The position numbers and the translations under genes were made by a program. From NCBI GenBank assembly GCA_947044365.1, contig OX345652.1, positions 1,705,001-1,769,000 of the forward strand: DNA of 64,000 nt, given 5' to 3'. This DNA is from Petrosia ficiformis (Eukaryota; Porifera; Demospongiae; Haplosclerida; Petrosiidae). Below are positions 7,611 to 64,000 of the stretch, in pieces. The stretch's first letter is position 1. Every line of letters starts with the position of its first letter. The notes beneath the pieces were generated by a model, which saw only the letters and a program-made list of their open reading frames with translations, had not been told where the DNA came from and made no database searches.

Positions 7611-7974
7611 ATCAGTAGTTGGCATGATAAAGAGTTTGGACTCAGAAGGCTAATCAGTGATAATGGGATAGGTGATCGTGTTATTATATATAGCCGGATG
7701 AAATTATGAATGTATCTAAATAGCTTCGCATGTTTATCTGGCTAATAAGATACACTTTCAAAAATTAATATATAGCTAATTTATATAATTATTAATTATA
7801 TACAAATAACATATCACATGTTTATCTGGGTATAGCCAGATAAAAATGTTCATTTATCTACTTCACATATGTATCTGGCTAATAAGCACATGTATAATAT
7901 TATATAGATAGATACACACAATGATATAATATGCAAACTATTATAAAGTGATTGAACTCGCAACAAACATAATT

Positions 7975-8265
7975 AAAAATAATAAAAACATTTTTAATAA
8001 AAATGAAAGAAAATGAAGGGACCCCAAATCGAATTAAAGGTATGCAAACAAGGTTGGTAGGCTAACATAGGATCCAAAATTAAACAAAACACTTCCATAT
8101 AACCTTACATAAGTACATACACTGCTATAAAGCAAAATACAAAAAATATACTTATGTGGGGTTAGTGGAAGTGGTTTGTTTAATTTTGGGTCCTATGTTA
8201 ACCTCCCGAATTTTTCGCATACTATTGGAGTTTTGATGTACATATATCTTCTTTCACTTGGTCAA
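7975..8265. mobile_element. M1 foldback element, full but diverged
   Basis: The left arm (AATAAAAACATTTTTAATAAAAATG ... ACTTCCATATAACC) is mirrored by the right arm (GGAAGTGGTTTGTTTAATTT, TGGGTCCTATGTTAACCTCC). Its centre contains AAGCAAAATACAAA, as in the other copies. Confidence 0.65.
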
Positions 8266-12500: not shown

Positions 12501-13722
12501 TCAATCCACCAGCTCCTACAACAGGTAATTGACAAGCTTCATATTTGGTAAGACCTGATATTGCAGGAATATTATGAATGTTATTAAAGTTTGTTGTAAG
12601 TATTGTTTTCTTTAATATAACCTGAACATAATTATCATTTGTACTTTTGTCTTTATTTTTGAATATTGCTGCAATACCACTGCCTGAACATGAAGTTGTA
12701 TCATCACTGCAGGGACTGCCACCTAGTCCTTCAGACACTATTGTGTTTAGTACTTCAAATGTTCCAAAAGGGTTTAGAATTAAAACAGCATAGCCAAAAT
12801 ACATGCTATCAATATTGACCTGTCTTATTGTTACATTGTTACACAGATTAAACATTAGTACTGCTCTTTGTTTATATAGAAGATGAGGATGAGTATTATT
12901 GAAACTTCTAACAGCTGTGCTTGGAATAATCCCTCCACAACCATGGAAATGAACATTTGCCAATAATAAATTGGTGATGTTTATGAAACCAAACCCAGAA
13001 CCAGGACTACCAACAGGAACACAACGTATAGTGGAGTTTCCATTCACACCCTGAAGAGTGAGGTTGTTGATGTTCTGTACAATGCAATACCCATCAATTT
13101 GATATAATTCATAAGATGACACATTGAGCTTTAGTACCAAATTGTTTGATAGTTGTGTTGAAGTATTACTGCACAGTATTTCATTCAATAGATTGGTATT
13201 AGATATGACGATATCTGTTCCTTGTGTTCCAGTAAGTGTGAATAGAACCAATAACACAAGCCAGACACTGGATAAGTATATAGTTGAGTATAAAATACTT
13301 ATTCTAACTGTGCAATTACTTGAATAAATAGTATGGCAAGGAAACTATAATAAACTTTAGAGTAATTTATTTTTATGTATTGTCTGTTTATGATACCGAA
13401 TAAATTGTACTCAATATGAATATCAATGATAATTATATAATAATTATGTATAAAGGTATTTCATTATGCATGTTGTATGTAAAAAGTGTTTGTGTTCAGT
13501 ATCATAAACAGACAATGCATAATTAAAATTAGTAAAATTGTTTCAAAACATGAAAGCTTTCTCAAGGAACTTGCATGAATGTGAGAGTATCAAACTTATG
13601 TTGAAGCTTAGTTTAGCCAAGAATGTTTTTCAGTTGGTTATACTGTCATAGTAATATTAAAATCAGTTGATGACACAAGACTAGAATAGGCAAAGCAATT
13701 ATAATACAACATACCTGTTCAT
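9580..13722 (-). CDS. Copy A: intact beta-helix/Cys-rich/multi-pass membrane protein, 1231 aa
   Basis: Two exons, complement(9580-13267 and 13715-13722). Exon 1 supplies only ATGAACAG; the donor is gtatgt and the acceptor tatccag. Joining restores the signal peptide MNSVWLVLLVLFTLTGTQG; the 3.7-kb exon alone has no in-frame ATG at its 5' end. The ectodomain to about residue 735 is rich in N-x-S/T sites and beta-helix-like motifs (FTNNSGSNGAA, LLYGGAIYAVND) resembling bacterial Pmp repeats. A Cys-rich module follows (CPIGFQLSNNGICECD, then GKTGVLCGQC), then about eight membrane segments from ~847 to ~1190 and an acidic tail (EEDKEEYDEMRQALLM). The layout suggests a surface receptor or adhesion protein; the membrane domain vaguely recalls TRP/Pkd2-type proteins. 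Ligand and pathway are unknown. A GGSPCSDDTTSCSG pair of Cys here is Ser in copy C. Confidence 0.85.
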
Positions 13723-18846: not shown

Positions 18847-19150
18847 GTATAAAAAATAATAAAAAACATTTTCAATGATAATGAAAGATGTAGGGACGTC
18901 AAAACTTAAAAAGCATGCAAACAAGGTTGGAAGACTAAAATAGGACCCAAAATTAAACAAACCACTTCCATATAACCCTACATAGGTACTTACACCACTA
19001 TAAAGCAAAATACAAAGAGCTGTACTTATGTAGGGTTATATGGAAGTGGTTTGGGTCCTATTGTAACCTCCCAAACTTGTTCTCATGCTTTTTGGGTTTT
19101 GACGTCCCCACATCTTGCTCCATTTTTATTGAAAATGTTTTTTTTTGTTA
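18847..19150. mobile_element. M1 foldback element, well preserved
   Basis: The arms run from AATAATAAAAAACATTTTC to GAAAATGTTTTTTTTTGTT, with mirrored GACGTCAAAA/TTTTGACGTC, AAAGCATGC/GCATGCTTT and CCACTTCCATATAACCC/GGGTTATATGGAAGTGG. R2 sequence follows directly. Confidence 0.75.
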
Positions 19151-21000: not shown

Positions 21001-21014
21001 AAACAATGGAAACA

Positions 21015-21316
21015 AGAATAATAAAAAACATTTTGAATAAAATGAAAGAAGGTGTAGGGATGTCAAAACCCAAAAAGCATGCGAACAAGGTTGGGAGGTT
21101 AACGTAGAACCTAAAATTAAACAAACCACTTCCATATAACCCTAATACATACTTACACTGCTATAAAGCAAAATACAAAGAGCTGTACTTATGTAGGGTT
21201 ATATGGAAGTGGTTTGTTTAATTTTAGGTCCTACGTTAACATCCCAACCTTGTTTGCATGCTTTTTGGGTTTTGACATCCCTACATCTTCTTTCGAAATA
21301 TTTTTTATTATTCTTC
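21015..21316. mobile_element. M1 foldback element
   Basis: Mirrored arms from CAAGAATAATAAAAAAC to TTTTTATTATTCTT; the central loop holds AAAGCAAAATACAAAGAGC. Confidence 0.75.
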
Positions 21317-22638: not shown

Positions 22639-23080
22639 GGATGATATATGGCATATATCCCTGCTGTACTCATGAACGAACTTTGATGTAGTTGGATAAC
22701 TTCCCTGCGGTTGTATAACTGCCCTGTGGTCGGAGATAGATGCCATATATACGCCCTGTCGACTCTTTGATGTTTCTGCTAACTATGGCATATATATATA
22801 TATATAGTATAGCTTACAGCCACATCAAAGCACCGCCAGGTCGTATATAGGCCATATACGACCTGTGATTACATCATAATGATATTCACGAGTCCATAGC
22901 TCATATACAATGATATTCACGAGGCATGCAGGTATGAAACTCATAAATAAACGTATTCATAGCTATGCACATGCACACAGCATGCACATCCATGCTGACC
23001 AGATTCCAAGAAAACGATGTGGAAAAGAAAATCGCCCTACAAAAAATATTCAGACCATTCTGAAAAAAAAAACAATGGAA

Positions 23081-23395
23081 ACAAGAATAATACAAAATAT
23101 TTCCAATAAAATGAAAGAAGATGTAGGGATGTCAAAACCCAAAAAGCATGTGAACAAGGTTGGGAGGTTAACGTAGGACCTAAAATTAAACAAACCACTT
23201 CCATATAACCCTACATAAGTACAGCTCTTTGTATTTTGCTTTATAGCAGTGTAAGTACTTATGTAGGGTTATATGGAAGTGGTTCGTTTAATTTTAGGTC
23301 CTATGTTAACCTCCCAACCTTGTTCGCATGCTTTTTGGGTTTTGACATCCCTACATCTTCTTTCATTTTATTCAAAATGTTTTGTATTATTCTTG
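23081..23395. mobile_element. M1 foldback element with intact termini
   Basis: Clear symmetric termini ACAAGAATAATAC and TATTATTCTTGT. The arms mirror each other throughout except for a short centre with two TACTTATGTAGGG-type words. A short R2 remnant (CAGACCATTCTGAAAAAA) lies immediately left. Confidence 0.8.
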
Positions 23396-23420
23396 TATAA
23401 TATATATAGCATGATGGTGA

Positions 23421-24155: not shown

Positions 24156-24386
24156 GATGTGGTGAGTTCTATATAATGTATATAAAAATAAAAGAATAAT
24201 GTGCAAAATTATTACTGAGCAACAATTATTATAAACTACAATTGACATAATATCCACAAATTAAAACTAAGCTACGAGGAAGAGTATTAACCTAACAAAT
24301 TATTATTATTACTACAAAATTAATTTTAAAAATTAATAGCTACAATGCTACGCTACAGTTTTGAGGTTGAAATATCAAATGTAAAC

Positions 24387-27300
24387 TCAGTCAGCAGGTA
24401 TCAGTAAAGCTTGTCTCATTTCATCATACTCCTCTTCATCTTCTTCATGTATATGTCTCTCTGTCGAGTGACGTGTTTCTCTTTCATCACACAACTGAGT
24501 ATTACATTTCTTGATTTTAAACTTACCCAAACATTTTGATGATATATTAATCACCAGTATACCAAATACCACTGTTTTCAGTAAAGCAGTAATATATGAT
24601 AGAGTTTGTGACGTATGACGCCTTACTGGTTCACATAACAAAGCAACAATAATCTGTACTATAACTATAGACAGAATGAATCCACCCAGTTTAAACCATT
24701 GTGCCTAAAAGGCTTAACGTAGGTTTGTAAGAGTGCCAGAGGGATCACAATTATCACATGAAGAAACAACATTAATGAAACATCGATGCCTCTCAGTGTT
24801 ATGAACACAATATATATGTACACAACTACTAATATTCTCACACCAAACCAATATCCAAGTATATGTTTATATGGTCCATGAAAAGATTCTATGAAGGATC
24901 GAAAGTGATGTAAGCGTTTGCATCTCAAAATGTAGTTCCCAAAAGTGACAATTATTATATACGGAAGTACGAATAAGACTAGTGTCACTATAGCAATTGT
25001 AAAAAGTATGATGTGTTCCTTATCTTGTAAGTAGACAACACTGCCATCTCCATACCATACTGTGATAGTGTCATTATTTCCTGTTTTAATACGTGCATAT
25101 ACCAGTATGTCAATACTGGTGATTAGCAGTTTTGAAAACGAAAGATGGATGAGTGTGGCCAGTACTTGCACTGATGATGCTGCCGTCTGATTAGAGACAC
25201 GAGTGGAATACCAGCTTAAAACAATGAACATAATTACAATGGTCCACATGTATACTGGAAATATAAACTGCAGTCCTGGCTTTATTGCTGTTGTCATTCC
25301 ATCATAAAAGCACAATGGAAATCCAAGGTTGAGATTCATGAGTGATACAAAGATTCTCATTCCCGATATAAACACATTATCATCATCAAGATAGTCAATA
25401 GTAGAAACAGCAATAATATTATTTGTAAGTATAATACTAGCAAGTGGTCCTTGTGATAATGTGAGTCTAAAGAAGAGTAAAACAGTCACAAGTATCACTC
25501 CAATGATAGCATACCCTACTAAGGTGAGAAGCCATAGGTTAGAACAGTGTCTGCACTCAGTAGTCCCAAATATAATGCTAAGTTTATCTATACATTGTCC
25601 ACAAAGAACTCCGTTTTTCCATCAATACATATCGAATGCTCTATATCTGATACATTAATTGCTATTGTAGTTGATCTACAGCTACCAGATGAACATATGT
25701 TAGTAAATCCAAGTGTGGAATTATTTATTCTACCAAGCCATGATCCAATTGGTTGAGTTATACGCAATGTACTTATGTTACACTCAGCATTTGTAACTAC
25801 TTTAGTAATGAGATAATCACACTCACAAATTCCGTCATTAGATAATTGGAATCCAATTGGACAAGGATATACATAAATATGAGTAGACAAACTTGGTGTA
25901 TCTCCTGGTATAGCTAATTCTAAATACCCATGCTTTGTGTGATTAATCTTACTGTGTATATTGTATGTAATATTACTACATCTGAATCCAGTGAGTGGTA
26001 CCAAGTCTTGACCCTTATTCAAAGTCAACGCATCCTGAAATAAATTATGAGTGATGTAGTGATAAGCAGTAACAGAAGCAACAACAGGTGAGTACACTAT
26101 TAGACCCATAGCATCAACAGCTACAAGGCTTAGTGTGATAGACTTACCAGGATATGTCTCAATGACTTGAATTGCATTTGCCAATTTAGTACATTGCAGT
26201 TCATCAATTGTAATTAATCTCTTGCAGTAACATACTTGAACAGGTACAGAAGACAAATGTTGTAAACAATTATCTGGTGGTATAGGTTCAAATGTGGCAT
26301 TTAAAAATTCTCTGATATCAAGAGTAGTTGAGTAATACTGGGTACAGTTGTATATTGATGTAGCATAGATACTATTTCCAGCTAATGCAGCTTTGTTGTT
26401 AATAAAGGTCATCATAATATCTAAATCATTAAGGTTTGATGTGTTTACACCTAACTGTATAACACACTTATTGTCTCCAGGTAGTGGATCATTTACAGCA
26501 TATATTGCACCACCATAAAGTAATGCTTTGTTGTTGAGAAATGTTGCATGTAGTGGTGAAATTAAGAACAGATATGATGAATGATAAAGAGATATTGCTG
26601 CTCCATTACTACCACTATTATTTCTGAAAGTCATATTTCCTTGTATAAACAGGTTAGTGTTGTAAACTGCCAGGACTGGACTGCTATTTTAATGAAAGAA
26701 ACCTCCAGATATGATAACATTTTTCCAGTTAACAAATGTCATAGTTGCTACTTCTGAGTACAAAGTATTAGTAGCAGATCCTTGTACATTGTATTGTGAC
26801 TCACAGGTTTCCAAAAGAATAGAATGGTTAGCTAGCTGTAAGCGATCTCACAACTGCATACATTCCTGAACCAGTTATGGCAGCATAGTTTATTTTAAAA
26901 TTCACTTTCTTCAAGAAGAAATGATATACACTGTTTGCACAGCTTTGATGAATGTCCATATAAAACCCACCACCATATTTGTGTTTTGTAGATTCTGCTG
27001 GCCGGGGATGGATCACCACTACCTGTAATATATACAATATCCATATAAATTGGATCCCACCTAAGAGCAGTTGTGGTATCACTGCTACATTTACCACACA
27101 CAAAACTGTGAATAGTTATACCAGACCCTCCATCTTGATTTGTATTAGCAAATAGGGATCCACTGTAGAAATTGTTATTAGTTAAGGAAACATGTGATTT
27201 TTTCATATCATTAAGAAAGAGAATTAACATTCCTCCAGCTACAGATCCACAGCTTATATCACCTATTGTGCTTTGTGTTGTAGTAAAATTAGCAATGTAA

Positions 27301-28497
27301 TCTGTCTGTGTAAATATAACAGTCAATCCACCAGCTCCTACAACAGGTAATTGACAAGCTTCATATTCTTTGAGACTTGATAATGTTGGAATATTAGGAA
27401 TGTTATTAAAATTTACTTGAACAATCGTTTCTCTCAATATCACCTGTGTATAACTTTCTATCTTACTTAGTCTTTCATTTTTGAATATTGCTGCAATACC
27501 ACTGCCCGGACATAATGTTGTATTGTAACTGCAGAAAATACCACCTAGTCCTTCAGACACTATTGTGTTTAATATTTCAAATGTTCCAAAAGGGTTTAGA
27601 ATTATAATAGCATACCCAAAATACTTGTTACCAATATTGATCTGTTTTATTGTCACATTGTTACACAGATTAAACATTAGTACTGCTCTTTGTTTATATA
27701 GAAGATGAAGATGAGTATTATTGAAACTTCTAACAGCTGTGCTTGGAATTATCCCTCTGCAACCTTCAAAATGAACATTTGCCAATAATGAATCGGTAAT
27801 GTTTATGAAAATAAAGCCAGAACCAGGACTACCAATAGGAACACAACGTATAGTGGAGTTTTGCTTTGCACCCTGAACAGTGAGGTTGTTGATGTTCTGT
27901 ACAATGCAATATCCATCAATTTGATATAATTCATAAGATGACACATTGAGCTTCAATACTAAATTGCTTGGTAGTTGTGTTGAAGTATTACTACACAGTA
28001 TTTCCTTCAATTGATTAGTATTAGATATGACAACATCTGTTCCTTGTGTTCCAGTAAGTGTGAATAGAACCAATAACACAAGCCAGACACTGGATAAGTA
28101 TATAGTTGAGTATAAAACTACTTATTCTAAATGTGGAATTACTTGAATAAATAATATGGTAAGGAAAACAATGAATCTCTAATAAACTTTTGAGTAATTT
28201 TGCTTTAATTAAAATTTATTTTTATGCTTTGTCTGTTTATGATACCGAATATGTTGTACTTAATAGGATAGTTATTGTATTATAATTATGTACCTATATA
28301 TTTTATTATGCATGCTGTATGTATGAAGTGTTTGTATTTGGTATCATAAACAAACAATTCATAGCATAGCAATAAAATTATTTCAAAACATGAAAAGTTT
28401 CTTTTGGAACTGTCACAGTAATATTAAAATCAGTTGATGACACAAGATTTTAATAATAGAATAGGCAAAGCATTTATGATACAACATACCTGTTCAT
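24387..28497 (-). pseudogene. Copy B: disrupted member of the 1231-aa membrane protein family
   Basis: Full-length homologue of copy A. The 8-nt first exon (28490-28497, ATGAACAG plus donor) and the second exon from 28089 are preserved, so the start is intact. The body is broken at least five times: a two-base loss near 27005 (GGCCGGGGATGG), a four-base gain near 26832 (TTAGCTAGCTG), a nonsense change GAA to TAA near 26689, a frame change near 25613, and a four-base loss near 24671 (CTATAGACAGAATG). Copies A, C or E have the unbroken base string at each site. It shares its 3' flank with copy E (GAGCAACAATTATTATAAA), marking a B/E subfamily. It is probably non-functional as one protein. Confidence 0.88.
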
Positions 28498-29120
28498 CTT
28501 TGTTGTTTTCACTCTTGTTCTTAATTTCAGCTGAAGTTGATCACTTGCAAGACAGTTATGTATGTAAATGCCTGAGCTGAAGCATGCAACATTATAATTA
28601 TACATAGAGATGATGCATTTGTGAGTTTAAAAGTCAATTGACAAACTACAATCTATAATTATGAAAGTGGTACACCCACCATAAGTTATTGTTTAGACTT
28701 AAAACTATTGTTCATACTAACCATAATAAATTTATATCTAAACACAATATGCATAGTTTTCTGAACATCATGAATCAACAGAATTTTGTTATTGTTTCAA
28801 TATTAATTATTGCTGTTTATGTACTATTGTCTATATAATTATAATTGTTTTTCATTATAGTTATTGTATAGTTATTTGAAACAGGATTATGTGGCTGCTT
28901 ACACATCAATCTGGACTCAACAAAATGTGCCCTTTGGTATAAAACATCTTCCTATGTGATATGTTCAGAGTGAAAACAAACAATAACTGCTCAGCAGTGC
29001 AGTCAGGTCGATCACACCTTTGAGCCACAGTGGTAGAACCTATTTCATGCCAGTAATTAACATCACATAATGTGTTTAACAAACTGGAAAAGTATCCGAG
29101 TGCTGTATATGTACTATAAT

Positions 29121-32300: not shown

Positions 32301-32320
32301 GAGTGTTGGATCATAAGTAT

Positions 32321-32626
32321 ACAAGAATAATAAAAGATGTTGTCAATAAAAATGAAAGCAGATGTAGAGACGTCAAAACACTAAAAGCATGTGAACAAGG
32401 CCAGGAAGCTAACATAGGACCCAAAATTAAGCAAACCACTTCCATATAACCCTACATAAGTACTTACACTGCTATACAAAAGTGGTACTTATGTAGGGTT
32501 ATATGGAAGTAGTTTGTTTAATTTTGGGTCCTATGTTATAGCCTCCCAACCTTGTTCACATGCTTTTTGGGTTTTGACGTCCGGACATCTTTCATTTTTA
32601 TTGAAAATTTTTTTTATTATTCTTGT
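32321..32626. mobile_element. M1 foldback element with intact termini
   Basis: Termini ACAAGAATAATAAAAG and TTTTTATTATTCTTGT, with mirrored CCACTTCCATATAACCC and GGGTTATATGGAAGTAG arms. It lies about 700 bp upstream of the ankyrin/Roc gene. Confidence 0.8.
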
Positions 32627-32631
32627 TTCCA

Positions 32632-33130
32632 TTGTTGTTTTTCTGAATAGTGTGAATATTTTGTAGATTGCAGAAATACTGGTGTAAGCATATCGCATAC
32701 AATCATGATTGCATTAAAGCTTGTTCATCAATGAAGGACAGTCTTTTATATATATCAATTATTTATGAATTAATCATCGTTCTCTTTCACTCACAGATGG
32801 TGTCTATTTTCTATTTCATTTACAGCACTGTCTGCCGTCCCACAAGAAGTAGTGTCAGTCACTGACAGCCATTATGCTCATCATAGCATATAATAATTTA
32901 TTAGTATACAATGGCTTTAATATTCATTATTATAAGAATGTATTTGCTCACAAAAAGTTTATTGCCAAATTTCCACTTCAGCTTCATTTTCAAATGCGCG
33001 TGCGCAATGAAATTCTACGTGGTTCGATTAATGAATGCACTTATGAAAATGGCGACTTTGTAGTCGTTGAGTCAACGGGTTTACTGTACATAGGCATAGA
33101 GCATTATTCTACTGCATAGTAATCGTCAAA
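32632..33130 (+). repeat. R2 repeat plus GC palindrome upstream of the ankyrin/Roc gene
   Basis: Matches 19155-19520 (CAGAAATACTGGTGTAAGC, TTCATCAATGAAGGACAG, ATTTGCTCACAAA) and then carries GCGCGTGCGC near 32996 followed by AAAATGGCGACTTTG. Because it abuts the first exon of a gene, it may overlap its promoter. Confidence 0.55.
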
Positions 33131-33400: not shown

Positions 33401-36400
33401 ATGTCTGATAATACAGTTGAACAGAAGTGTTTAAAGGCGTTTAAGAATGGGGAAAAAGAGGAAGCAATTGGATTGTTACCTGTTGTACTTAATCCTCATA
33501 GACTGAAGGACCATAACCAAAAGACAATTCTTCATTTGGCATGTTATCATGGATGGATTGATATAGTGATGAAGCTCATCAATGAATATCAATTTGATCC
33601 AAAGTGTAGAGATAGTAATGACAACACTCCACTACATTTTGCATGTTTTCAAAAAGATAATCTACATATTATTCAGTACCTGATTGGTGAATGTCGATGT
33701 GATCTGATGAGTAAAAACAATGGTGGTGACATTCCACTACATGTTGCTTGTAGAAAGAGACATATAGAGATGGTTCGATACATGATTGGTGAATGTCAAT
33801 GTGATGCGATGTGTAAGAACAATGGTGGTGACACTCCACTACATGTTGCTTGTAGAAAGAGAGATATAGAGGTGGTTCGGTACCTGATTGGTAAATGTCG
33901 ATGTGATCCGATGGGTAGGAACAATGATGGCGACACTCCACTACATGTTGCTTGCATATATGGAGGCATAAAAGTGATTCGGTACTTGATTGGTGAATGT
34001 CGATGTGATCTGATGTGTAAGAACATTGATGGCAACACACCTCTACATTTAGCTTGTTATGTTGGCCCTAGTATTGCTGTTATCGAATACATTCTCTCTA
34101 CTGGAAAAATCAATCCACTAGCTAAAAATATAATAGAAAAAACTCCAATACAGATGGTAGCTGAATTCAGGAGGGAAAAGGTGAAACAATTGTTTGCTAA
34201 GTTTGGTAAAATCAAGATATCTCATCCAGTTAACTCCTACGTCAATGTAGTTCTATTGGGAAATCCTGGAGCAGGTAAGAGTTCATTAGCTCAGGTCATC
34301 ATACAAAGAGCCAGTGGTGTGTTTGCTTCAGTACGTGGTCTGTTTCAGCATGTAAAGGGAGTGGAGCTTTGTACAGCTGGCATAATTCCTAGTAAACTGG
34401 AACACAGAGAATTAGGAAATGTTATCCTACATGATTCGGCAGGTCATCCAGAATATTATTCCAGTCACATTGCAGTCCTTGAGAATCTAGTACATGGTTC
34501 TGCAGCTGTTTTCGTTATTGTAGTTAATTTAGGTGAGAAAGAAGTATACAATCAACTCCATCATTGGCTGACTATTGTTGAGAACGAATGTAAAAAAGCA
34601 TTAAATCAGTGTCATGTGATTATAGTAGCCAGCCATATTGATGAAGTCCAGCAGAGAAATTTGCTATATATCTACAGACAGTTAGCAAAGATTTCGTCAT
34701 CACGACTTTCTCAACAGAGTATTGAGAACTGCGGTTTAGTACATCTTGATTGTCGTATGCTTGTAGGTGGTGAGCTTTCATCATTTACAACAACCTTATC
34801 CAGTGCATGTCAATCTATTCGTAGTACTAACACAAGGGAAATGAGTCTCTATTGTCACATGTTGTATGCTTTACTTGAAGAGAAGAACGAGAGTGTCTAC
34901 ACACTAGACCAGCTAATTGCTATCTTGAGGCAATCAGAAAATTACATGCCGCTAGAAGTTGAGGCAGTATCAGAGTTACTCTCCTCTCTTCATACAACTG
35001 GTCTGATTGTGTTTCTAAAGAATAACCACGCACCTGGTTATTCATGGGTAGTTGCTCGAAAGGATGTTCTTCTGACTGAAGTAAATGGAGTTCTGTTTGC
35101 TCCAGATAATTTTAAAGAACATCGTGACATAGCTAGTAATGCAGGGATTATTAGTTTATCCAGTCTTTCTCAACTCTTCCCACAATATTCTTCAGATATG
35201 TTAGTTGTATTTCTTCAGTATATGGAGCTGTGTCAGGAGATCAGTCCAGAATTCTTGGCTTTCACTAATCTGATGATAAAAGAGGAAGAATCATCAGATG
35301 AGACGAAGAGATTATTATTCTTTCCTGCTCTTATACGTGACTCAGACAGACCTCAAGATATCCATGAAACCTTTCATTTCGGTTGGTGTCTTCAGTGCTC
35401 TAATCCTCATCAGTTCTTTGTTCCTCGTTTCCTCCATGTTCTTCTTCTTTATCTAGCCTATAATTATGCCATCCCAATCATTGCACGTAGTCAAACTTCT
35501 ATTTCAAGTCTCCATCGTCTTTGTGATATATGGAAGAATGGAATCCATTGGTTAGATACAGGTGGAGTAGAGACTATAGTGGAGTTAGTAGACAATAATC
35601 AGTGTGTTGTACTCCTTATGTCTTGTCAGCAAAATTTCGAAAACAACATGATAAAACTTCGTAAGGAGGTTATTTCAGGGATCACATCTCTTCAGAGACT
35701 TATATGTTGTAGTTTAGAAGTAGAAGAGTTCGTGATTGATCCTGATGACTTAGAGTATCCCATTATTAAACCATCAGAACGAACACTTTATAATATGAAG
35801 TTTATTAGCTCATGTATTCATCAGAAACCATTTGTTCTTGATAGTAAAGGACACAAACTTCGACGTGTACAAGATTTACTACCATTTGAACCTTCTGATA
35901 ACATATATTCTTCGAGAGTGTCTGTATTGAATGGATGTGATCCAGAGGTGAGCTATAATAGTTGTGTATAATTAGTAATGTTCATATTGTTAATCATTTT
36001 AATAGACGCTAAGTGGACACAGTGAGACTAGTCAGATCACTACAGGTATACTAATACAATCAACAATACTAATGTGTGTACTCACTAACTCACTTTACTT
36101 TCAGGATCATCACACACATCAGAGTTAACTGTTCCTAATTCTCCTAAGAACATACTCACAAGACACTTGTCTGATATAACTGATATTGTGTTAGATCCAG
36201 AGAAATTAGCTAATGATCTTCACTCTGCTGGTCTAATAACATTACACATGAAAGATAGAGTATTGACTACCTCAGGTTACCCTCGTTATGAGAAAGTCAG
36301 TATGTTACTGAATGATGTATGGAGGTTACTGAGAGGTGATAGTTATCGTGAGAAATTAATAATATTTTGTGATGTACTGAAGAGACAGAATAATGAAACA

Positions 36401-46009: not shown

Positions 46010-46309
46010 ACAGGAATAATAAAAAACATTTTCAATAAAAAAAGAAAGAAGATGTAGGGATGTCAAAACCCAAAAAGCATGCAAACAAGGTTGGGAAGCC
46101 AACACAGGACCCAAAATCACTTCTATATAACCCTACATAAGTACAGCTCTTTGTATTTTGTTTTTAAAGCAGTGTAAGTACTTATGTAGGGTTATATGGA
46201 AGTGGTTTGTTTAATTTTAGGTCCCACCCAACCTTGTTTGCATGCTTTTTGGGTTTTGACATCCCTACATCTTCTTTCATTTTATTGGAAATGTTTTTTA
46301 TTATTCTTA
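46010..46309. mobile_element. M1 foldback element
   Basis: Arms from ACAGGAATAATAAAAAAC to GTTTTTTATTATTCTT, centre with TACAGCTCTTTGTATTTTG. Last part of the composite repeat. Confidence 0.75.
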
Positions 46310-46640
46310 ATTATATAGACAATAACAATTAATGGTTACATTGAAACAATAACAAAATACTGTTTGATTCATGATGTTCAGAACACTATGCATATTGTGC
46401 TATTTATGTTAAGATATGAATTTATTATGGTTGGTATGAACAACAGTTATAAAGTATAAACTATAGCTTATGGTAGGTGTACCACTTTCATAAATATACA
46501 TTTTATTTAGTCAATTGTCTTTCAAACACACAAATCATGTACATAATGTTGCATGCTTTAACTCAGGCATTTACACACATAACTGTCTTGTAAGTGATCA
46601 ACTTCAGCTGAAATTAAGAACAAGAGTGAAAACAACAAAG

Positions 46641-49600
46641 ATGAACAGGTATGTTGTATCATAAATGCTTTGCCTATTCTATTATTAAAATCTTGTGTCA
46701 TCAACTGATTTTAATATTACCGTGACAGTTCCAAAAGAAACTTTCATGTTTTGAAATAATTTTATTGCTATGCTATGAATTGTTTGTTTATGATACCAAA
46801 TACAAACACTTCATACATACAGCATGCATAATAAATATATAGGTACATAATTATAATACAATAACTATCCTATCAAGTACAATATATTCGGTATCATAAA
46901 CAGACAAAGCATAAAAATCTATTTTAATGAAAGCAAAATTACTCAAATGTTTATTAGAGATTCATTGTTTTCCTTACTATATTATTTATTCAAGTAATTC
47001 CACATTTAGAATAAGTAGTTTTATACTCATCTATATACTTATCCAGTGTCTGGCTTGTGTTATTGGTTCTATTCACACTTACTGGAACACAAGGAACAGA
47101 TGTTGTCATATCTAATACTAATCAATTGAAGGAAATACTGTGTAGTAATACTTCAACACAACTACCAAGCAATTTAGTATTGAAGCTCAATGTGTCATCT
47201 TATGAATTATATCAAATTGATGGATATTGCATTGTACAGAACATCAACAACCTCACTGTTCAGGGTGCAAAGCAAAACTCCACTATACGTTGTGTTCCTA
47301 TTGGTAGTCCTGGTTCTGGCTTTATTTTCATAAACATTACCAATTCATTATTGGCAAATGTTCATTTTGAAGGTTGCGGAGGGATAATTCCAAGCACAGC
47401 TGTTAGAAGTTTCAATAATACTCATCCTCATCTTCTATATAAACAAAGAGCAGTACTAATGTTTAATCTGTGTAACAATGTGACAATAAAACAGGTCAAT
47501 ATTGGTAACAAGTATTTTGGGTATGCTATTTTAATTCTAAACCCTTTTGGAACATTTGAAATACTAAACACAATAGTGTCTGAAGGACTAGGTGGCATTC
47601 CCAGCAGTGATGATACAACTTCATCTTCAGGCAGTGGTATTGCAGCAATATTCAAAAATAAAGGAAAAAGTACAAATGAAAGTTATGTTCAGGTTATATT
47701 AAAGGAAACAATATTTCGAACAAACATTAATAACATTCATAATATTCCTGCAATATCAGGTCTTACTAAATATGAAGCTTGTCAATTACCTGTTGTAGGA
47801 GCTGGTGGATTAACTGTTATTTTTACACAGACAGATTATATTGCTAATTTTACTACGACACACTGCACAATAGGTGAATTAAACTATGGATCTGTAGCTG
47901 GAGGAATGTTAATTCTCTTTTTTAATAATATGAAACAATCACAAGTTTTAATAGCAAACACTAATTTCTACAGTGGAGGCTTACTTCTTGATACAAATCA
48001 AGTTGGTGGGTCCGATATCACTATTCATAGTTTTATTTGTGGTAACTGTAACAGTGGTAAGACAGACTCACCAATTTATTTCGATACTGTGCACATTGAT
48101 GATTTAAATGATCCAAGATTACAAACAACAACACTCCAGTATGGTGGTATGTTTTATATAGACATTCATGAAAGCTGTACAAACGATTTCAAGCAATTCT
48201 TCTTAAAGAAGTTGAAGTTAACAATACGCTTCCGAAGTTCATTTCAGCCAGGAATGTATGCAGTTGTGAGATCCCCTAAAGCTGAACATTCCATTGTTTT
48301 GGAAAGCTGTGAGATGAAACAAGATTCAATAAATATCGCTAGTTTATACTCTTTAGTTGCAGCAATGACATTTGTCAATTGGAAAAGTATTACCGTATGT
48401 GGAGAAAGTTTTTTTTATGAAAATGAAAGTCCAGTCCTGGCAGTTTACAACACTAACCTGTATATACAAGGAAAGATGACTTTCAGAAATAACAGTGGTA
48501 GTAATGGAGCAGCAATATCTCTTTTTCATTCATCGTATCTATTTTTAACTCCACCACTACATGCAATGTTTCTCAACAACAGAGCATTACTTTATGGTGG
48601 AGCAATATATGCTGTAAACGATCCACTACCTGGAGACAATATGTGTGTTATACAATTAGGTGTAAACACATCAAACTTTGATGATTTAGATATTATGATG
48701 ACTTTTATTAACAACAAAGCTGGGTTAGCTGGAAATAGTATCTATGCTACATTAATATACAACTGTACCCAGTATTACTCTACTGATCTTGATATCAGAG
48801 TATTGTTAAATGCCACATTTGAACCTGTAACAACAGATAATAGTTTACAACATATATCTTCAAAACCTGTTGAAATATGCTACTGCAGTAAATCAAATGT
48901 AACCGATGATAAAATGCTACAACATTGTACAAGTTCAGAAACACTAATTCAAATCATTGACACGTACCCTGGTAAATCTATCACACTGAGCATAGTAGCA
49001 GTGGATGCTATGGGTTTAATAGTATACTCACCTGTTAGTGCTTCAATTGCTACCAACCACTACTATGGTCATCGTTTATCACAAGATTTGTTAACTTTGA
49101 AGGAGGGTCAAGACTTGGTATCCCTTTCTGGACTTAGATGTAGCAATGTTACATACAATATACACAGTAAAACAAACCAACCTGAAAATGGATATTTGCA
49201 ATTAGCTATACCAGGAAATCAACCAAGCTTGTCAGCTCATATTTATGTATATCCTTGTCCAATTGGATTCCAATTGTCTAACAATGGAATTTGTGAGTGT
49301 GATCATTTCATTACTAAAGTAATTACAAATGCTGAGTGTAACATAAGTACACTGCTTATTACTCGACCAATTGGATCATGGTTTGGTAGAATAAATATTT
49401 CCACACTTGGATTTACTAACATATGTCCATCTGGTAACTGTAGATCAACTACAATAGCAATTAATGTATCAGATATAGAGCATTCTATATGTATTGATGG
49501 TAAAACAGGAGTACTTTGTGGACAATGTATAGATACTCTTAGCATTATATTTGGCACTACTGAGTGCAGACACTGTTCTAACCTATGGCTTCTCACCTTG

Positions 49601-50734
49601 GTTGGTTATGCTGCCATTGGAGTGATACTCGTGACTGTTTTACTCTTCTTTAGACTCACATTATCAGAAGGACCACTTGCTAGTATTATACTTACAAATA
49701 ATATTATTGCTGTTTCTACTATTGACTATCTTGATGATGATAATGTGTTTATATCAGGAATGAGAATCTTTGTATCACTCATGAATCTCAACCTTGGATT
49801 TCCATTGTGCTTTTATGATGGAATGACAACAGCAATAAAGACAGGACTACAGTTTATATTTCCAGTATACATGTGGACCATTGTAATTATGTTTATTGTT
49901 TTAAGCCGGTATTCCACTTATGTCTCCAATCAGACAGCAGCATCATCAGTGCAAGTACTGGCCACACTCATCCATCTTTCGTTTTCAAAACTGCTCATCA
50001 CCAGTATTGACATACTGGTATATGCACGTATTAAAACAGGAAATAATGACACTATCACAGTATGGTATGGAGATGGTAGTGTTGTCTACTTACAAGATAA
50101 GGAGCACATAATACTTTTCACAATTGCTATAGTGACACTAGTCTTATTCATACTTCCATATATAATAATTGTCACTTTTGGGAATTATTTCTTGAGATGG
50201 AAACATTTACATCACTTTCGATCCTTCATAGAATCATTTCATGGACCTTATAAACATGTACTTGGATATTGGTTTGGTGTGAGAGTAATAGTTGTTGTGT
50301 ACATATATATTGTGTTCACAACACTGAGAGGGGTTGATGTTACTTTAATGCTGTTTCTTCAAGTGATGGCAATGATCCCTTTGCTAGTCTTACAAACTTA
50401 TGTCAAACCCTTCAGGCAGAATGGTTTAAACAGGTTAGATTCATTTGGTCTCTTCGTAAATATAGTACATATTATGTTTGCTTTGTTACTGGTACCAGAA
50501 ATAAATCATGCTTCACATACTCTGCCATATATTACTGCTTCATGGACTGCAGTGGTATTTGTTATATTGGTGATTAATATATCATCAAAATGTTTGGGTA
50601 AGTTTAAAATCAAGAAATGCAATACACGGTTTTGTGAGAATAAAGAAATTCATCACTCTAGAGAGAGAGAATTAGAAGAAAACAAAGAGGAGTATGATGA
50701 AATGAGACAGGCTTTACTAATGCTTGCAGACTGA
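46641..50734 (+). CDS. Copy C: intact beta-helix/Cys-rich/multi-pass membrane protein, 1231 aa
   Basis: Exons 46641-46648 (ATGAACAG) and 47047-50734, intron 398 nt with gtatgt donor and tatccag acceptor. The junction codon AGT keeps the frame and yields MNSVWLVLLVLFTLTG, a typical signal peptide; the large exon has an in-frame TAA at 47012 and no ATG before GTGTTATTG. Layout as in copy A: glycosylation-rich beta-helix-like ectodomain (LLYGGAIYAVND near 517), Cys-rich module at ~738-845 (CPIGFQLSN, GKTGVLCGQC), about eight membrane segments ~847-1190, acidic tail ending YDEMRQALLMLAD. Residues before ~175 follow copy B (NQLKEIL, VQGAKQNST), later ones follow copy A (NQPENGYLQLAIPG), so it is a mosaic. 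Two Cys of copy A (near 180) are Ser here. A surface receptor/adhesion role is inferred only. Confidence 0.87.
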
Positions 50735-51559: not shown

Positions 51560-51810
51560 AAAATGACAAATTATATAATATGAGGTTTGTAGGAATAGAT
51601 CACTGTAATATTTCTTCAGAGTTAAAGACATACAATTCTGATGACACACTGCATGGTTTATTGATATTATGATTCACCATCAGGTGAATTACCTTTAATT
51701 ATTGGGATGGTTAGTGAAGTACATTGTAACATCGTATAATAGTTAAAGCACTACTTGATTAAATCACATGCAAAAGGTGGTGCATTTGTCCACTCACCTA
51801 TCAAATGAAA
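51560..51810 (-). pseudogene. Inverted remnant of the last exon and intron of the exon-rich receptor
   Basis: On the minus strand 51580-51690 matches the last exon of the 1441-7351 gene (GAATCATA...CAATAAACCATGCAGTGTG; TAGTGATCTATTCCTACA-type stop region) with deletions and substitutions. 51690-51800 matches its preceding intron (GTGGTGCATTT/AAATGCACCACC, TGCAATGTACTTCACTAACC). The order is rearranged relative to the parent. Clearly non-functional. Confidence 0.65.
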
Positions 51811-51820
51811 ATAAATAATA

Positions 51821-52135
51821 AAATAAGATTTTTAATAAAAATGAAAGAAGATGTAGGGATGTCAAAACCCAAAAAGCATGTGGACAAGTTCAGGATAGTA
51901 TAACACAGGAGGTTAATGTAAGACTCAAAATTAAACAAACCACTTGCATATAACCCTACATAAGTGCAGCTCTTTGTATTATGCTTTATATATAGCAGTG
52001 TAAATATTTATGTACGGTTATATGGAAGTAGTTTGTTTAATTTTGGGTCCTACATTAATTTTGGGTCCTACATTAACTTCCCGTTTTCACATCCCCACAC
52101 TTCTTTTCATTTTTATTGAAAATTATTTTAATTAT
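51821..52135. mobile_element. M1 foldback element
   Basis: Arms from AATAATAAAATAAGATTTTT to ATTGAAAATTATTTTAATTA, with an ATTTTGGGTCCTACATTAA duplication in the right arm. Confidence 0.7.
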
Positions 52136-55594: not shown

Positions 55595-57678
55595 TCAGTC
55601 TGCAAGCATTAGTAAAGCTTGTCTCATTTCATCATACTTCTCTTTGTCTTCTTCTAATTCTCTCTCTCTAGAGTGATGAGTTTCTTTATTCTCACAAAAC
55701 CGTGTATTGCACTTCTTGATTTTTAACTTACCCAAACATTTTGATGATATGTTAATCACCAATATAACAAATACGACTGCTATCAATGAAGAGGTAATAT
55801 ATGACAGAGTATGTGTAGCCTGATTTCTTTCCGGTACACGTAACAAAGCAAACATTATCTGTACTGTAATTACAAAGTGACAGAATGAATCTAACCTGTT
55901 TAAACCATTCTGCCTGAAGGGTTTGACATAAGTTTGTAAAACTAGCAAAAGGATTATTGCTATCCCTTGAAGAATCAGCATTAAAGAAACATCAACTCCT
56001 CTCAGCACTGTGAACACAATATATATGTACACAACTACTAATATTCTCACACCAAACCAATATCCAAGTACATGTTTATAAGGTCCATGAAATGATTCTA
56101 TGAAGGATCGAAAGTGATGTAAGCGTTTGCATCTCAAGAAATAGTTCCCAAAAGTGACAATTATTATATACGGAAGTACAAATAAGACTAGTGTCACTAT
56201 AGCAACTGTGAAAAGTATAACATGTTCCTTATCTTGTAAGTAGACAACACTGCCATCTCCATACCATACTGTAATAGTGTCATTATTTCCTGTTTTAACA
56301 CGAGCATATACCAGTATGTCAATACTGGTGATGAGCAATTTTGAAAACGAAAGATGGATGAGTGTGGCCAGTACTTGCACTGATGGTGCGGCTGTCTGAT
56401 TGGATTAAAACAATAAACATAATTACAATGATCCACAAGTATACTGGAAATATAAACTGTAGTCCTGTCTTTATTGCTGTTGTCATTCCATCATAAAAGC
56501 ACAATGGAAATCCAAGTTTGAGATTCATGAGTGATACAAAGATTCTCATTCCTGATATAAACACATTATTGTCATCAAGATAGTCAATAGTAGAAACAGC
56601 AATAATATTATTTGGAAGTATAATACTAGCAAGTGGTCCTTCTGATAATGTGAGTCTGAAGAAGAGTAAAACAGTCACAAGTATCACTCCAACGAAAGCA
56701 TACCCTACAAATGTGAGAAGCCATAGGTTAGAACAGTGTCTGCACTCAGTAGTGCCAAATATATTGCTAAGTTTATTTATATATTGTCCACACAGAACTC
56801 CAGTTTTACCATCAATACATATAGAATGCTCTATATCTGATACATTAATTGCTATTGTAGTTGATTTACAGTTACCAGATGGACATATGTTAGCAAATCC
56901 AAGTGTGGAAATATTTAACAAACCCATTCTGCCAAGCCATGATCTAATTGGTCGAGTAATAAGCAATGTACTTATGTTACACTCAGCATTTGTAATTACT
57001 TTAGTAATGAAATGATCACACTCACAAATTCCATTGTTAGATAATTGGAATCCAATTGGACAAGGATATACATAAATATGAGCTGACAAACTTGGTTGAT
57101 TTCCTGGTATAGCTAATTGCAAATATCCATTTTTAGGTTGGTTTGTTTTGCTGTGTATATTGTATGTAACATTGCTACATCTAAGTCCAGAAAGGGATAC
57201 CAAGTCTTGACCCTCCTTCAAAGTTAACAAATCTTGTGATAAACGATGACCATATTAGTGGTTGGCAGTAACTGAAGCACTAACAGGTGAGTATACTATT
57301 AAACCCATAGCATCCACTGCTATTATGCTGAGTGTGATAGACTTACCAGGGTATGTGTCAATGATTTGAATTGTTGTTCCTGAACCTTTACAATGTAGTA
57401 GAAATTTATCATCGGTTACATTTGATTTACTGCAGTAGCATATTTCAACAGGTACTGAAGATATGTGTTGTAAAGTATTATCTGTTGGTATAGGTTCAAA
57501 TGTGGCATTTAACAATACTCTGATATCAAGATCAGTAGAGTAATACTGGGTACAGTTGTATATTAATGTAGCATAGATACTATTTCCAGCTAACCCAGCT
57601 TTGTTACTAATAAAGGTCATCATAATATCTAAATTATCAAGGTTTGATGTGTTTACACCTAACTGTATAACACACTTA
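55595..57678 (-). pseudogene. Copy D: 5'-truncated and disrupted member of the 1231-aa family
   Basis: Homologous to copy A from about residue 555 to the end. Homology stops abruptly near 57678 (ACACACTTATA then unrelated sequence), removing the signal peptide and most of the beta-helix region. A TAC-to-TAA change gives a stop near 57255, and 20 bp are missing near 56407 (GATTGGATTAAAAC against GATTGGAGACATG... in A), shifting the frame in the membrane region. The 3' flank (AGTCTGCAAGCATTAGTAAAG, AAACATTTTTT) is A/C-like. Not functional as a full receptor. Confidence 0.88.
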
Positions 57679-57850
57679 TAGCCTATTTTACATTTATAAT
57701 ATAATAAAATAAGTCAGAGTTGGCTAATCTTAGGAAGTGGCTGACAAGAGAAATAATGTCAAGGTGAAATCTATAGCTTGTATGTGTGGCAACATTCCAT
57801 AGTAAATACACTATAACAGCTTCACATCAATTATTTATGTTGATTGATAG

Positions 57851-59682: not shown

Positions 59683-61440
59683 GTTTACTTCGTAATTCAT
59701 AATTCATTTATTTCATAATTCTTTTGTCTGTTTTGGATAGTGTGAAGATTGTAGTGGCAAAATAATGTTTATTGTTATCCATATAGACCTGGTACAATAT
59801 AACAAAAGAGTTCATATTCATGTAGCCAACTCAGGTTTTTACTATATCAGGTAGGGGATAGGATAGAAAACATCATACCTCAATATCTTTTTCTGTTACA
59901 AGAGTTCGTCACCACAGTACTATCTTCGGGAAGTCGCCATTTTACAGCCTGGTTATTTAATAATAGACTAATAATCATTGTGGGCAGGGGCACAACGTTT
60001 TTTTTAAGCATACGCCCTCCACTAACCAGCACGATCACTAACTGGCACGGCACAGACCTTCCATGTGCACAATATGCAGGAGATGTTACCATCATACAAT
60101 ATATTGTATATAGTATGCAAATAGGTTCTATATACTGCATATAGGACCCTCGTTTTGTGTCCTATATATTGTATATAGGACCTGTTAGCGTACTATATAT
60201 ATTACATATATATATTATATATATATACATATAACCAACCACTTATCACCTTAATGATATGATTCAATAAGTATGAAGAGTAGAGTGATTGACATGAGAA
60301 TTACATATATACCTATTTATAATAACTATTATAAAGTCTTCCATATAAAAAATACATTAGTTTTTTCAGTTGCAAGGTCAATTGCTTTTTAAAGTTGCCT
60401 CTGATATGAATAATTTGCATAGACACCTCATCAAACATTCATTTGTTAATTAAACCACACATATAGGTGTATTTGCCAGATATACCACCTGCTGGTTTCC
60501 AGAGAATATATCTCTTGGCCCTACCATCAGGCCTCTGAATATATCCACACAAATGTCCTCTAATGTGGCATATACACCTCCTAACCGTGGTTCTTAAATA
60601 CCTCTCCAGGGCCATGTAATTATATACTGAGAGCTGAAAGTCTGAGGCATATAAACTGAGACTGAGTTGTATAACTACATTATATATATATTATGTTGAC
60701 CAATCAGATTACTTAATTAAAATTCCTGCATTAGATATAATTATATATATACACCTCCCTCAACCTCATTGTATAACCTATACTTGTAATACTTTGGATT
60801 GTAAAATCCAGTTTATAAAAAACAATAATATTTTAGTACGTTGTAAAATTGGGTTAAAAAACAAATTTCAAATGTCTCAGATCATCAAACAAACGGTATA
60901 ATTAAATATGTGAATCAATTATGTAAATGTGTATATACTGTATAAAATATGAAAATGTATGCATGTGAGTAATATTATTAACATGCGTAATAATAATTAT
61001 GTACAAACTTATAAACAACTAATTTACTATTCCTACTACTATACTAACCAATAAATTATTAATTTTGTATGTTTTAACAATTTGTTTTCTCTAGTGATAA
61101 TTATAAGGACAGCTTTTGCATGAGATATTTATGTAGATTTTTCTACCTGATAGCGAGGTAGACCATTAAATGCATTCGTAATAATCCAAATTCTATCATT
61201 TGATACTGAGTTAGCAAACAATGGTTCAGAGCCCCTCTCAAATAAAAAAATATGCATAAATTATTATTGAGCAACAATTATTATAAACCACAATTGACAA
61301 AATATCTACAAAATTAGCTACAAGGAAGAGTAATAAGCTAACAAACTAATTATTATTAAAATTGCTACAAAATTAATTTTAAAAAATTAATAGCTACAAT
61401 GCTACGCTACAGTTTTGAGGTTGAAATATCAAATGTAAAC
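59683..61440. other. Intergenic region with repeat remnants
   Basis: Contains a sequence related to the 23916-24155 tandem repeat (ATATAGGACC, GTGTCCTATATATT, 60090-60230) and a remnant of the intron preceding exon 11 of the exon-rich receptor (CAGTTGCAAGGTCAATTGC, 60368-60390). 61260-61440 is the 3' flank shared with copy B. No supported gene. Confidence 0.5.
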
Positions 61441-64000
61441 TCAGTCAGCAAGTATCAGTAAAGCTTGTCTCATTTCATCATACTCCTCTTCATCTTCTTC
61501 ATGTATATGTCTCTCTGTCGAGTGACGTGTTTCTCTATCATCACAAAACTGAGTATTACATTTCTTGATTTTAAACTTACCCAAACATTTTGATGATATA
61601 TTAATCACTAGTATACCAAATACCACTGTTGTCAGTGAAGCAGTAATATATGATAGAGTTTGCGACGTATGACGCCTTACTGGTTCACATAACAAAGCAA
61701 CAATAATCTGTACTATAACTATAAAGAGACAGAATGAATCCACCCGGTTTAAACCATTGTGCCTAAAAGGCTTAATGTAGGTTTGTAAGAGTGCTAGAGG
61801 GATCACAATTATCACTTGAAGAAACAACATTAATGAAACATCAACCCCTCTCAGTGTTATGAACACAATATATATGTACACAACTACTAATATTCTCACA
61901 CCAAACCAATATCCAAGTTTATGTTTATATGGTCCATGAAAAGATTCTATAAAGGATCGAAAGTGATGTAAGCGTTTGCATCTCAAGAGGTAGTTCCCAA
62001 AAGTGACAATTAGTATATACGGAAGTACGAATAAGACTACCGTCGCTATAGCAATTGTGAAAAGTATTATGTGTTCCTTATCTTGTAAGTAGACAACACT
62101 ACCATCTCCATACCATACTGTGATAGTGTCATCATTTCCTGTTTTAATACGCGCATATACCAGTATGTCAATACTGGTGATGAGCAGTTTTGAAAACGAA
62201 ACATGTATCATCAAGATAGTCAATAGTAGAAACAGCAATAATATTATTTGTAAGTATAATACTAGCAAGTGGTCCTTCTGATAATGTGAGTCTAAAGAAG
62301 AGTAAAACAGTCACAAGTATCACTCCAATTATAGCATACCCTACTAAGGCGAGAAGCCATAGGTTAGAACAGTGTCTGCACTCAGTAGTGCCAAATATAA
62401 TGCTAAGTTTATCTATACATTGTCCACACAGTACTCCAGTTTTACCATCAATACATATAGAATGCTCTATATCTGATACATTAATTGTTATTGTAGTTGA
62501 TTTACAGTTACCAGATGGACATATGTTAGTAAATCCAAGTGTGGAATTATTTATTCTACCAAGCCATGATCCAATTTGTCGAGTTATAAGCAATGTACTT
62601 ATGTTACACTCAGGACTTGTAACTACTTTAGTAATAAAATAATCACACTCACAAATTCCATCATTAGATAATTGGAATCCAATTGGACAAGGATATACAA
62701 ATATATGAGTAGACAAACTTGGTGTATTTCCTGGTATAGCTAATTCTAAATACCCATGCTTTGTGTGATTAATCTTACTGTGTATATTGTATGTAATATT
62801 ACTACATCTGAATCCAGTGAGTGGTACCAAGTCTTGACACTTATTCAAAGTCAACGCATCCTGAAATAAATTATGAGTGATGTAGTGATAAGCAGTAACA
62901 GAAGCAACAACAGGTGAGTACACTATTAGACCCATAGCATCAACAGCTACAAGGCTTAGTGTGATAGACTTACCAGGATATGTCTCAATGACTTGAATTG
63001 CATTTGCCAATTTAGTACATTGCAGTTCATCAATTGTCTTGCAGTAACATATTTGAACAGGTACAGAAGACAAATGTTGTAAACCATTATCTGTTGGTAT
63101 AGGTTCAAATGTGGCATTTAAAAATTCTCTGATATCAAGATCAGTAGAGTAATACTGGGTACAGTTGGATATTGATGCAGCATAGATACTATTTCCAGCT
63201 AACCCAGCTTTGTTGTTAATAAAGGTCATCATAATATCTAAATTTTTAAGGTTTGATGTGTTTATACCTAACTGTATAGCACACATATTGTCTCCAGGTA
63301 GTGGATCATTTATAGCATATATTGCACCGCCGTAAAGTAATGCTTTGTTGTTGAGAAATGTTGCATGTAGTGGTGGAATTACGAATAGATATGACGAATG
63401 ATAAAGAGATATTGCTGCTCCATTACTACCACTGTTATTTCTGAAAGTCATCTTTCCTTGTATAAACAGGTTAGTGTTGTAAACTGCCAGGACTGGACTG
63501 TTATTTTCATGAAAGAAACCTCCAGATATGGTAACATTTTTCCAGTTAACAAATGTCATTGTTGCTACTTCAGAGTACAAAGTATTAGTAGCAGATCCTT
63601 TTACATTGTATCGTGACTCACAGCTTTCCAAAAGAATAGAATGGTTAGCTGTAAGCGATCTCATAACTGCATACATTCCTGAACCAGTTATGGCAGCATA
63701 GTTTATTTTAAAATTCACTTTCTTCAAGAAGAAATGATATACACTGTTTGCACAGCTTTGATGAATGTCCATATAAAACCCACCACCATATTTGTGTTTT
63801 GTAGATTCTGCTGGCCGGGGGGTTGGATCACCACTACCTGTAATATATACAATATCCATATAAATTGGATCCCACCTAACAGCAGTTGTGGTATCACTGC
63901 TACATTTACCACACACAAAACTGTGAATAGTTATACCAGACCCTCCATCTTGATTTGTATTAGCAAATAAGGATCCACTGTAGAAATTGTTATTAGTTAA
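61441..64000 (-). pseudogene. Copy E: member of the 1231-aa family with an internal deletion, cut by the window edge
   Basis: Open from the right edge down to about 62210, covering the ectodomain from SLFANTNQDGGSG through the Cys-rich module and the first membrane segment. About 233 bp present in copy B (25144-25382) are then missing: the sequence jumps from GAAAACGAAA to TCATCAAGATAG. This removes the second and third membrane segments and shifts the frame. The downstream part (to 61441) is open in another frame and keeps the acidic tail. It shares B-type residues (NHTKHGYLELAIPG) and the B-type 3' flank. The 5' end lies outside the window. Confidence 0.85.

Follow-up and report, generated by a model that had tools for sequence, protein, structure and literature searches.

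The 64-kb stretch of sponge DNA analysed here (the window; positions 1705001–1769000 of contig C17, in a genome of 191 Mb in 29 contigs) contains one gene five times, as copies A, B, C, D, and E. A first-pass annotation had claimed, from the letters alone, that copy C joins a B-type 5′ part to an A-type 3′ part, and the locus therefore raises the question of whether this mosaic is real, and if so by what route and in which direction the sequence moved. The features that bear on the answer are given below in window coordinates unless stated otherwise.

9580–13257, minus strand: exon 2 of copy A, an intact frame of 1225 codons, A-type
24382–28079, minus strand: exon 2 of copy B, broken by four frame changes and one stop (from tblastn frames and projection), with a B/E-type body
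27574–28552, minus strand: the matching tract in B, the likeliest donor (98% identity over 977 bases, the best non-self match in the genome)
46300–46585, plus strand: copy C's own 5′ flank, with no close match to any other copy
46586–47562, plus strand: the putative converted tract in C, B/E-type
46641–46648, plus strand: exon 1 of copy C, ATGAACAG, the predicted start of the signal peptide, in a gene model read from the sequence
46649–47046, plus strand: putative intron 1 of copy C, with donor GTATGT and acceptor CCAG before 47047
47047–50734, plus strand: exon 2 of copy C, with an uninterrupted frame (1225 codons, counted from 47057)
47594–50734, plus strand: the A-type body of C, blocks v1-s1-v2-s2-v3-s3-v4, as assigned by diagnostic sites, the body tree, and the AU test
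47591–47801 (v1), about 47954–48404 (v2), 48824–49274 (v3), and 50312–50734 (v4): the high-dS blocks in C
55595–57679, minus strand: copy D, 5′-truncated and with a broken frame, with an A-type 3′ part
61433–64000, minus strand: copy E, B/E-type, open until about residue 895, where a deletion of about 233 bases breaks the frame
G000:C17:1769389–1770371, beyond the end of the window: the 5′ tract of copy E

Copies A, B, and C have in common a tiny exon 1 followed by a long exon 2, an arrangement read from the sequence, and in the predicted gene model the two exons jointly encode an N-terminal signal peptide. Copy D starts abruptly at 57679 within block s2, its 5′ half being absent. The lesions of copy B lie opposite C positions 48115, 48278, 49507, and 50450 (frame changes) and opposite residue 455 (the stop); in the alignment none of them is found in E, and the shift near 50450 is peculiar to B. 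Copy B thus decayed after it separated from E, and it may still have been intact as a donor. Elsewhere in the window, 33401–35971 on the plus strand holds a frame of 856 codons, unrelated to the family, that encodes ankyrin repeats and then a Roc/Ras-like GTPase domain.

A search of the genome returned at least 39 family matches, 16 of them (copy C included) being full-length, free of stops, and ≥81% identical, and the family is grouped on C17 at 1.09–1.19, 1.55, and 1.71–1.83 Mb and on C13 at 3.65–3.72 Mb. Those relatives of copy C that carry a name come from sponges: P0049 of another species, Amphimedon queenslandica, described as “TRP C-terminal domain-containing”, aligns over its full length at 37% identity, and remoter ones come from Ephydatia muelleri and Dysidea avara. 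The family is a large sponge group that combines a beta-helix ectodomain with a multi-helix membrane domain. The ectodomain fits the right-handed parallel beta-helix fold; fold comparison of the membrane part, for which a TRP-like fold was considered, gave no distinctive match, and a profile compared with the sequences of solved structures returned no matches. Further relatives were not found in the genome-contig and viral-contig collections searched. Identity as an adhesion GPCR was considered but found no support, there being no Pfam match to GPS/GAIN or 7tm_2 in A or C (up to E 0.1) or in P0049, P0017, P0020, and P0056 (up to 0.05).

Our analysis confirmed that copy C has an A-type body and a 5′ part of B type. 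We defined a diagnostic site as one at which B and E share a base and the A-type copies share a different one. Copy C has the B/E base at all 18 of the 18 such sites in 46586–47562; in 47594–50734 it agrees with the A-types at 184 of 191, with B/E at 5, and with neither at 2; the left flank holds only one such site, at which C has the B/E base. The tree of the 5′ coding block (b5) is ((B,C)96,E)100, and the body tree joins B with E at 100 and places C inside the A-type clade at 100, so that C groups with B and E in the 5′ block and with the A-types in the body with UFBoot support of 100 each. Both trees comprise 22 of 29 projected copies, leaving out D (which has no 5′ part), C17_1167, C17_1093, C17_1149, C13_3700, C13_3713, and C13_3684. 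The AU test rejects C with the A-types in b5 (0.0004, on the 22-copy set, which was used because in the unrooted 8-copy tract set the constraint “C with A-types” amounts to a mere split of B and E from the rest) and rejects C with B and E in the body (3.7e-12). Protein paralogues, a smaller set, do not fix the direction: in b5 they allow B/C to join P0014 (AU 0.172) or P0003 (0.357) and also, against the grouping above, allow C to join A, P0002, and P0003 separately from B (0.074); a pairing of B and P0014 that excludes C is rejected (0.0057). The residue strings that the first-pass annotation had cited hold up as well: NQLKEIL, VQGAKQNST, NVHFEGC, and EILNT are common to B and C against A, and past residue ∼180 C follows A. 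The “A-type” 3′ part of C includes v3, a block in which A's type prevails (19 of 23 sequences) and B and E deviate.

The likeness between B and C is bounded on both sides. They differ at 15 of 977 positions (1.5%) in 46586–47562, versus 29 of 267 (10.9%) to the left of ∼46586 and 317 of 1631 (19.4%) in v1–v3. The closeness extends to silent sites (dS 0.008 in the coding part) and to intron 1, where B and C are 2.3% different versus 15.6% for A and C by BLAST projection (a local misplacement near 46745 in the MAFFT alignment inflates the B-C intron count to 15/398). In C the tract contains 55 bp upstream of the start codon, exon 1, intron 1, and the first ∼170 codons of exon 2. Genome-wide, the only close matches to the whole tract are B (98%) and E (96%); the next long matches have 86–87% identity over bases ∼140–975, C17_1813 has 97% identity over the first 143 tract bases, and other matches reach at most 92% over shorter pieces. 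For the body of B (v1–v3), E is the single near match (97%), the next long match having 81% identity and a 460-base piece on C1 having 90%.

Breakpoints were judged by change-point, shuffle, and AU tests. To the left of 46586, the sites that sort A, B, and C as a triplet divide into 26 AB, 7 AC, 5 BC, and 1 other, and in 46586–47590 into 82 BC, 9 AB, 8 AC, and 2 other, a change of pattern that places the left boundary between 46576 and 46614. The flank beyond it is not B-like (A-B 7.1%, A-C 12.9%, and B-C 10.9% different): its matches in the genome have at most 82% identity, except for pieces of 36–47 bases at 87–94%, and it is unlike the flank of B and of the other copies. The B matches that had been quoted as 5′ flank lie instead inside intron 1. 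On the right, the best split of the triplet falls at 47528–47531 (2-lnL interval 47521–47564; chi-square 172.5) and was reached by 0 of 200,000 shuffles; the boundary itself is at 47562–47594, adjoining block v1, where B and C are 21% different. The proposed significant breakpoint near 47600 was thus recovered, but the idea that it is the single switch accounts for the right edge only and overlooks the boundary on the left.

Two further observations concern the surroundings of the tract. Residues 183 and 190 of C (47603–47626), immediately to the right of it, are serines, and A and B keep both cysteines of the CSDDTTxC loop; C may have jointly lost a disulphide here. A repeat family of ∼300 bp occurs at 7968–8259, 18852–19144, 21012–21315, 23037–23404, 32312–32662, 46014–46306, and 51804–52135, several of its copies being self-inverted and the one at 46014–46306 lying directly upstream of the flank of C; judged by its sequence, it looks like a small inverted-repeat transposon.

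From A, B, and C alone, the direction of exchange would be misread. Copies A and C differ at 309 of 4215 positions (7.3%) with no change point along the intron and gene, and silent differences between them are spread evenly across nine blocks (p = 0.44). Divergence of A-B and of B-C, on the other hand, changes at 47593–47594, 49235–49237, and 50318–50331, and at the left edge A-B shifts from 0.049 to 0.127 and B-C shifts too, with A-C steady. In terms of dS, A/C/D versus B/E stands at 0.37–0.52 in v1, v2, v3, and v4 and at 0.03–0.20 in the intervening blocks and in the A-B comparison of the 5′ block, while A-C is 0.04–0.15 throughout. Uniform identity of C to A is what the first-pass annotation had named as the refutation of its mosaic; it is indeed seen, yet it misleads, and other copies in the genome uphold the mosaic. 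With a uniform A-C and an A-B that changes at both edges, the window alone would make B the recipient, a reading that is reversed by copy E, since its 5′ part carries the tract and ∼7% is near what usually separates copies in this block.

Distances to copy E carry the argument on direction. Within the tract B and E differ at 32 of 977 positions (3.3%) and C and E at 30 of 977 (3.1%); in v1–v3 B and E differ at 48 of 1621 (3.0%) and C and E at 301 of 1621. In b5, E is 1.8% different from C and 2.6% from B, and C is 6.6–9.5% different from the A-types (A, C17_1790, C17_1813, C17_1831, C17_2343, and C17_2330); in the intron E is 5.0% different from C and 4.5% from B, and C is 11.3–17.3% different from the five A-types with aligned intron. 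The agreement between tract and body for B and E is expected if both inherited the tract together with their bodies, and the equality of C-E and B-E in the tract is expected if C took it from B. A single B-to-C transfer also accounts for a B-C tract distance that is half that of B-E. Copy C is nested within B/E with UFBoot of 96 (b5) and 85 (tract), although the AU test does not reject a (B,E) pair that excludes C (0.109), and only two clean derived sites unite B and C against E. By parsimony, and with copy E outside the window as the only pointer, we infer with moderate confidence that the direction was from B to C.

We thus consider it probable that copy C is a chimera produced by one gene conversion from B after the duplication that separated B and E. 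On this explanation, B and E would first have separated from a common copy, after which ∼1 kb of the 5′ end of B would have been copied, without crossing-over, onto the equivalent stretch of C, bringing with it the bases immediately upstream of the start codon, the first exon and its signal peptide, the first intron, and the first ∼170 residues of the beta-helix ectodomain. The transferred piece would end near 46586 on the left and at 47562–47594 on the right, where failure of homology at the divergent block v1 may have halted the tract, and the remainder of C would have kept its A-type sequence and its open reading frame. The first-pass annotation had offered gene conversion or unequal recombination; the former stands, and non-crossover conversion appears likelier than unequal crossing-over because the tract is bounded, the flanks are distinct, and B (minus strand) and C (plus strand) lie head to head, an orientation in which simple crossing-over would turn the intervening segment around.

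The most serious alternative, which we regard as unlikely, is that the C lineage gave the 5′ tract to the ancestor of B and E and later gave it again to B, so that B and E are the mosaics. The patterns within the window are what it predicts, namely an A-C comparison without a change point, homogeneous silent A-C differences, and a left edge that shifts A-B and B-C but not A-C. In b5, moreover, the B/C/E group adjoins C17_1831 (UFBoot 80), the sister of C in the body (88), and a position of B/C/E outside the rest of the family is rejected (AU 0.0054), unlike that of the B/E body, which implies that B/E once took the block from the main family. P0014, from another record, pairs a B/E-type body with a different 5′ block, nearer A's (93%) than B's (86%), and it too speaks against B as the source. 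However, this alternative requires two transfers, the first of which must coincide with the B-E duplication since the C-E and B-E distances in the tract equal that of the B-E body, and the C-A distance that inspires it is near that between most copies for the block. A transfer from B to C remains the better account of the present tract, and the position of the B/E 5′ block within the family, where its body is not, indicates that exchange at this block probably happened more than once.

Two other explanations are far less credible. A crossover between the inverted copies B and C could have inverted ∼28.6–46.6 kb and swapped their 5′ flanks, local repair then evening out the ends; the head-to-head arrangement allows for this, and the flank of B is nearer to that of A than the flank of C is, as if A-like bodies once had it. 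Nevertheless, a near-identical tract of ∼1 kb with bounds on two sides needs conversion anyway, and the blocks far upstream are about equally alike among A, B, and C (86–89%), the sign of a swap being absent, which makes the inversion very improbable. We give marginally less credence still to the proposal that no exchange occurred and that uneven selection or an assembly error gave C its B-like 5′ end. The block does have a conserved coding part, 16 of 17 proteins forming one cluster, but the likeness of B and C is equal in silent and intron sites, for which selection at the protein level offers no explanation.

The proposed conversion from B to C concerns a family whose blocks have conflicting histories. 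When trees of seven separate blocks, from 14 proteins, were tested on one another's data, AU rejected 39 of 42 combinations at 0.05; those that survived were s2 and s3, each on the tree of the other (0.086 and 0.053), and v3 data on the s2 tree (0.060). Judged by sequence comparison, C17_2330 (L031, G000:C17:2330200–2334000) is a second clear chimera, with an A-type body and a B/E-like tail (v4 distance of 6.7% to E, 18.0% to C, and 19.2% to A), and P0012 joins another v2 type to an A-type v4. Block v2 (residues 300–449 of C, the middle of the beta-helix) forms 10 clusters among 20 sequences and varies in length between A, B, and C; in each of b5, s2, and s3, all sequences but the distant P0017 fall into a single cluster. 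Mean dN/dS, taken from 120 pairwise comparisons among 16 copies, was 0.86 in v1, 0.84 in s1, 0.77 in v2, and 0.27 in the membrane core, and no block had a mean above 1 that would indicate positive selection. Single 20-codon windows do pass 1, the highest value, 2.90 at residues 661–680, being given without a significance test.

Architecture and variability suggest a recognition role for the family, and the chimera may alter ligand recognition. It is conceivable, though quite doubtful, that these are sponge recognition receptors for which copies nearby, whether intact or in decay like B and E, store sequence, conversion rewriting blocks and yielding new surface types within populations; equally doubtful is the extension that the blocks so rewritten, in intact genes, are the N-terminal part of the beta-helix, the hypervariable middle, the beta-sandwich, and the C-terminal tail. 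The idea of decaying copies as a store is weakened by the finding that the lesions of B are absent from E; B need not have been broken at the time of donation. Should the proteins function in recognising microbes or in telling self from non-self, the family would be a testable genetic source of sponge individuality.

Gene conversion among clustered paralogues is well known and commonly shuffles the outer parts of clustered families, and the mosaic of copy C is a new case of this known process. Less usual is a large family of sponge membrane proteins that exchanges block by block, with block edges roughly at structural parts and a highly diverse v2; a description of the family was not found in the literature searched, which omits bioRxiv preprints and many subscription papers. 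In avian immunoglobulin and trypanosome VSG genes, templated conversion from donor copies is somatic or programmed; here too a neighbouring copy donates sequence, but the sponge case gives no sign of a somatic or programmed process. A parallel in arrangement is the Sp185/333 (SpTransformer) family of the purple sea urchin, whose clustered two-exon genes consist of mosaic blocks and whose diversification is attributed to gene conversion and recombination (PMC1988830). Those genes are smaller than 2 kb (PMC3091723) and are described by the presence or absence of elements (PMC1831783). Compared by description and not by sequence, the sponge genes are likewise clustered (the C17 and C13 arrays) and have conflicting block histories; unlike Sp185/333, their full-length copies keep all blocks, though of alternative types, and encode a protein with a membrane domain. 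In the hsp70 genes of Stratiomyidae, conversion tracts are reported between neighbouring clustered copies, some of them inverted pairs, that also take in 5′ regions (PMC3071340). The exchange between B and C resembles these in joining neighbours and in involving the 5′ region; whereas conversion there keeps coding sequences alike, in the sponge family divergent ectodomain blocks persist beside similar ones.
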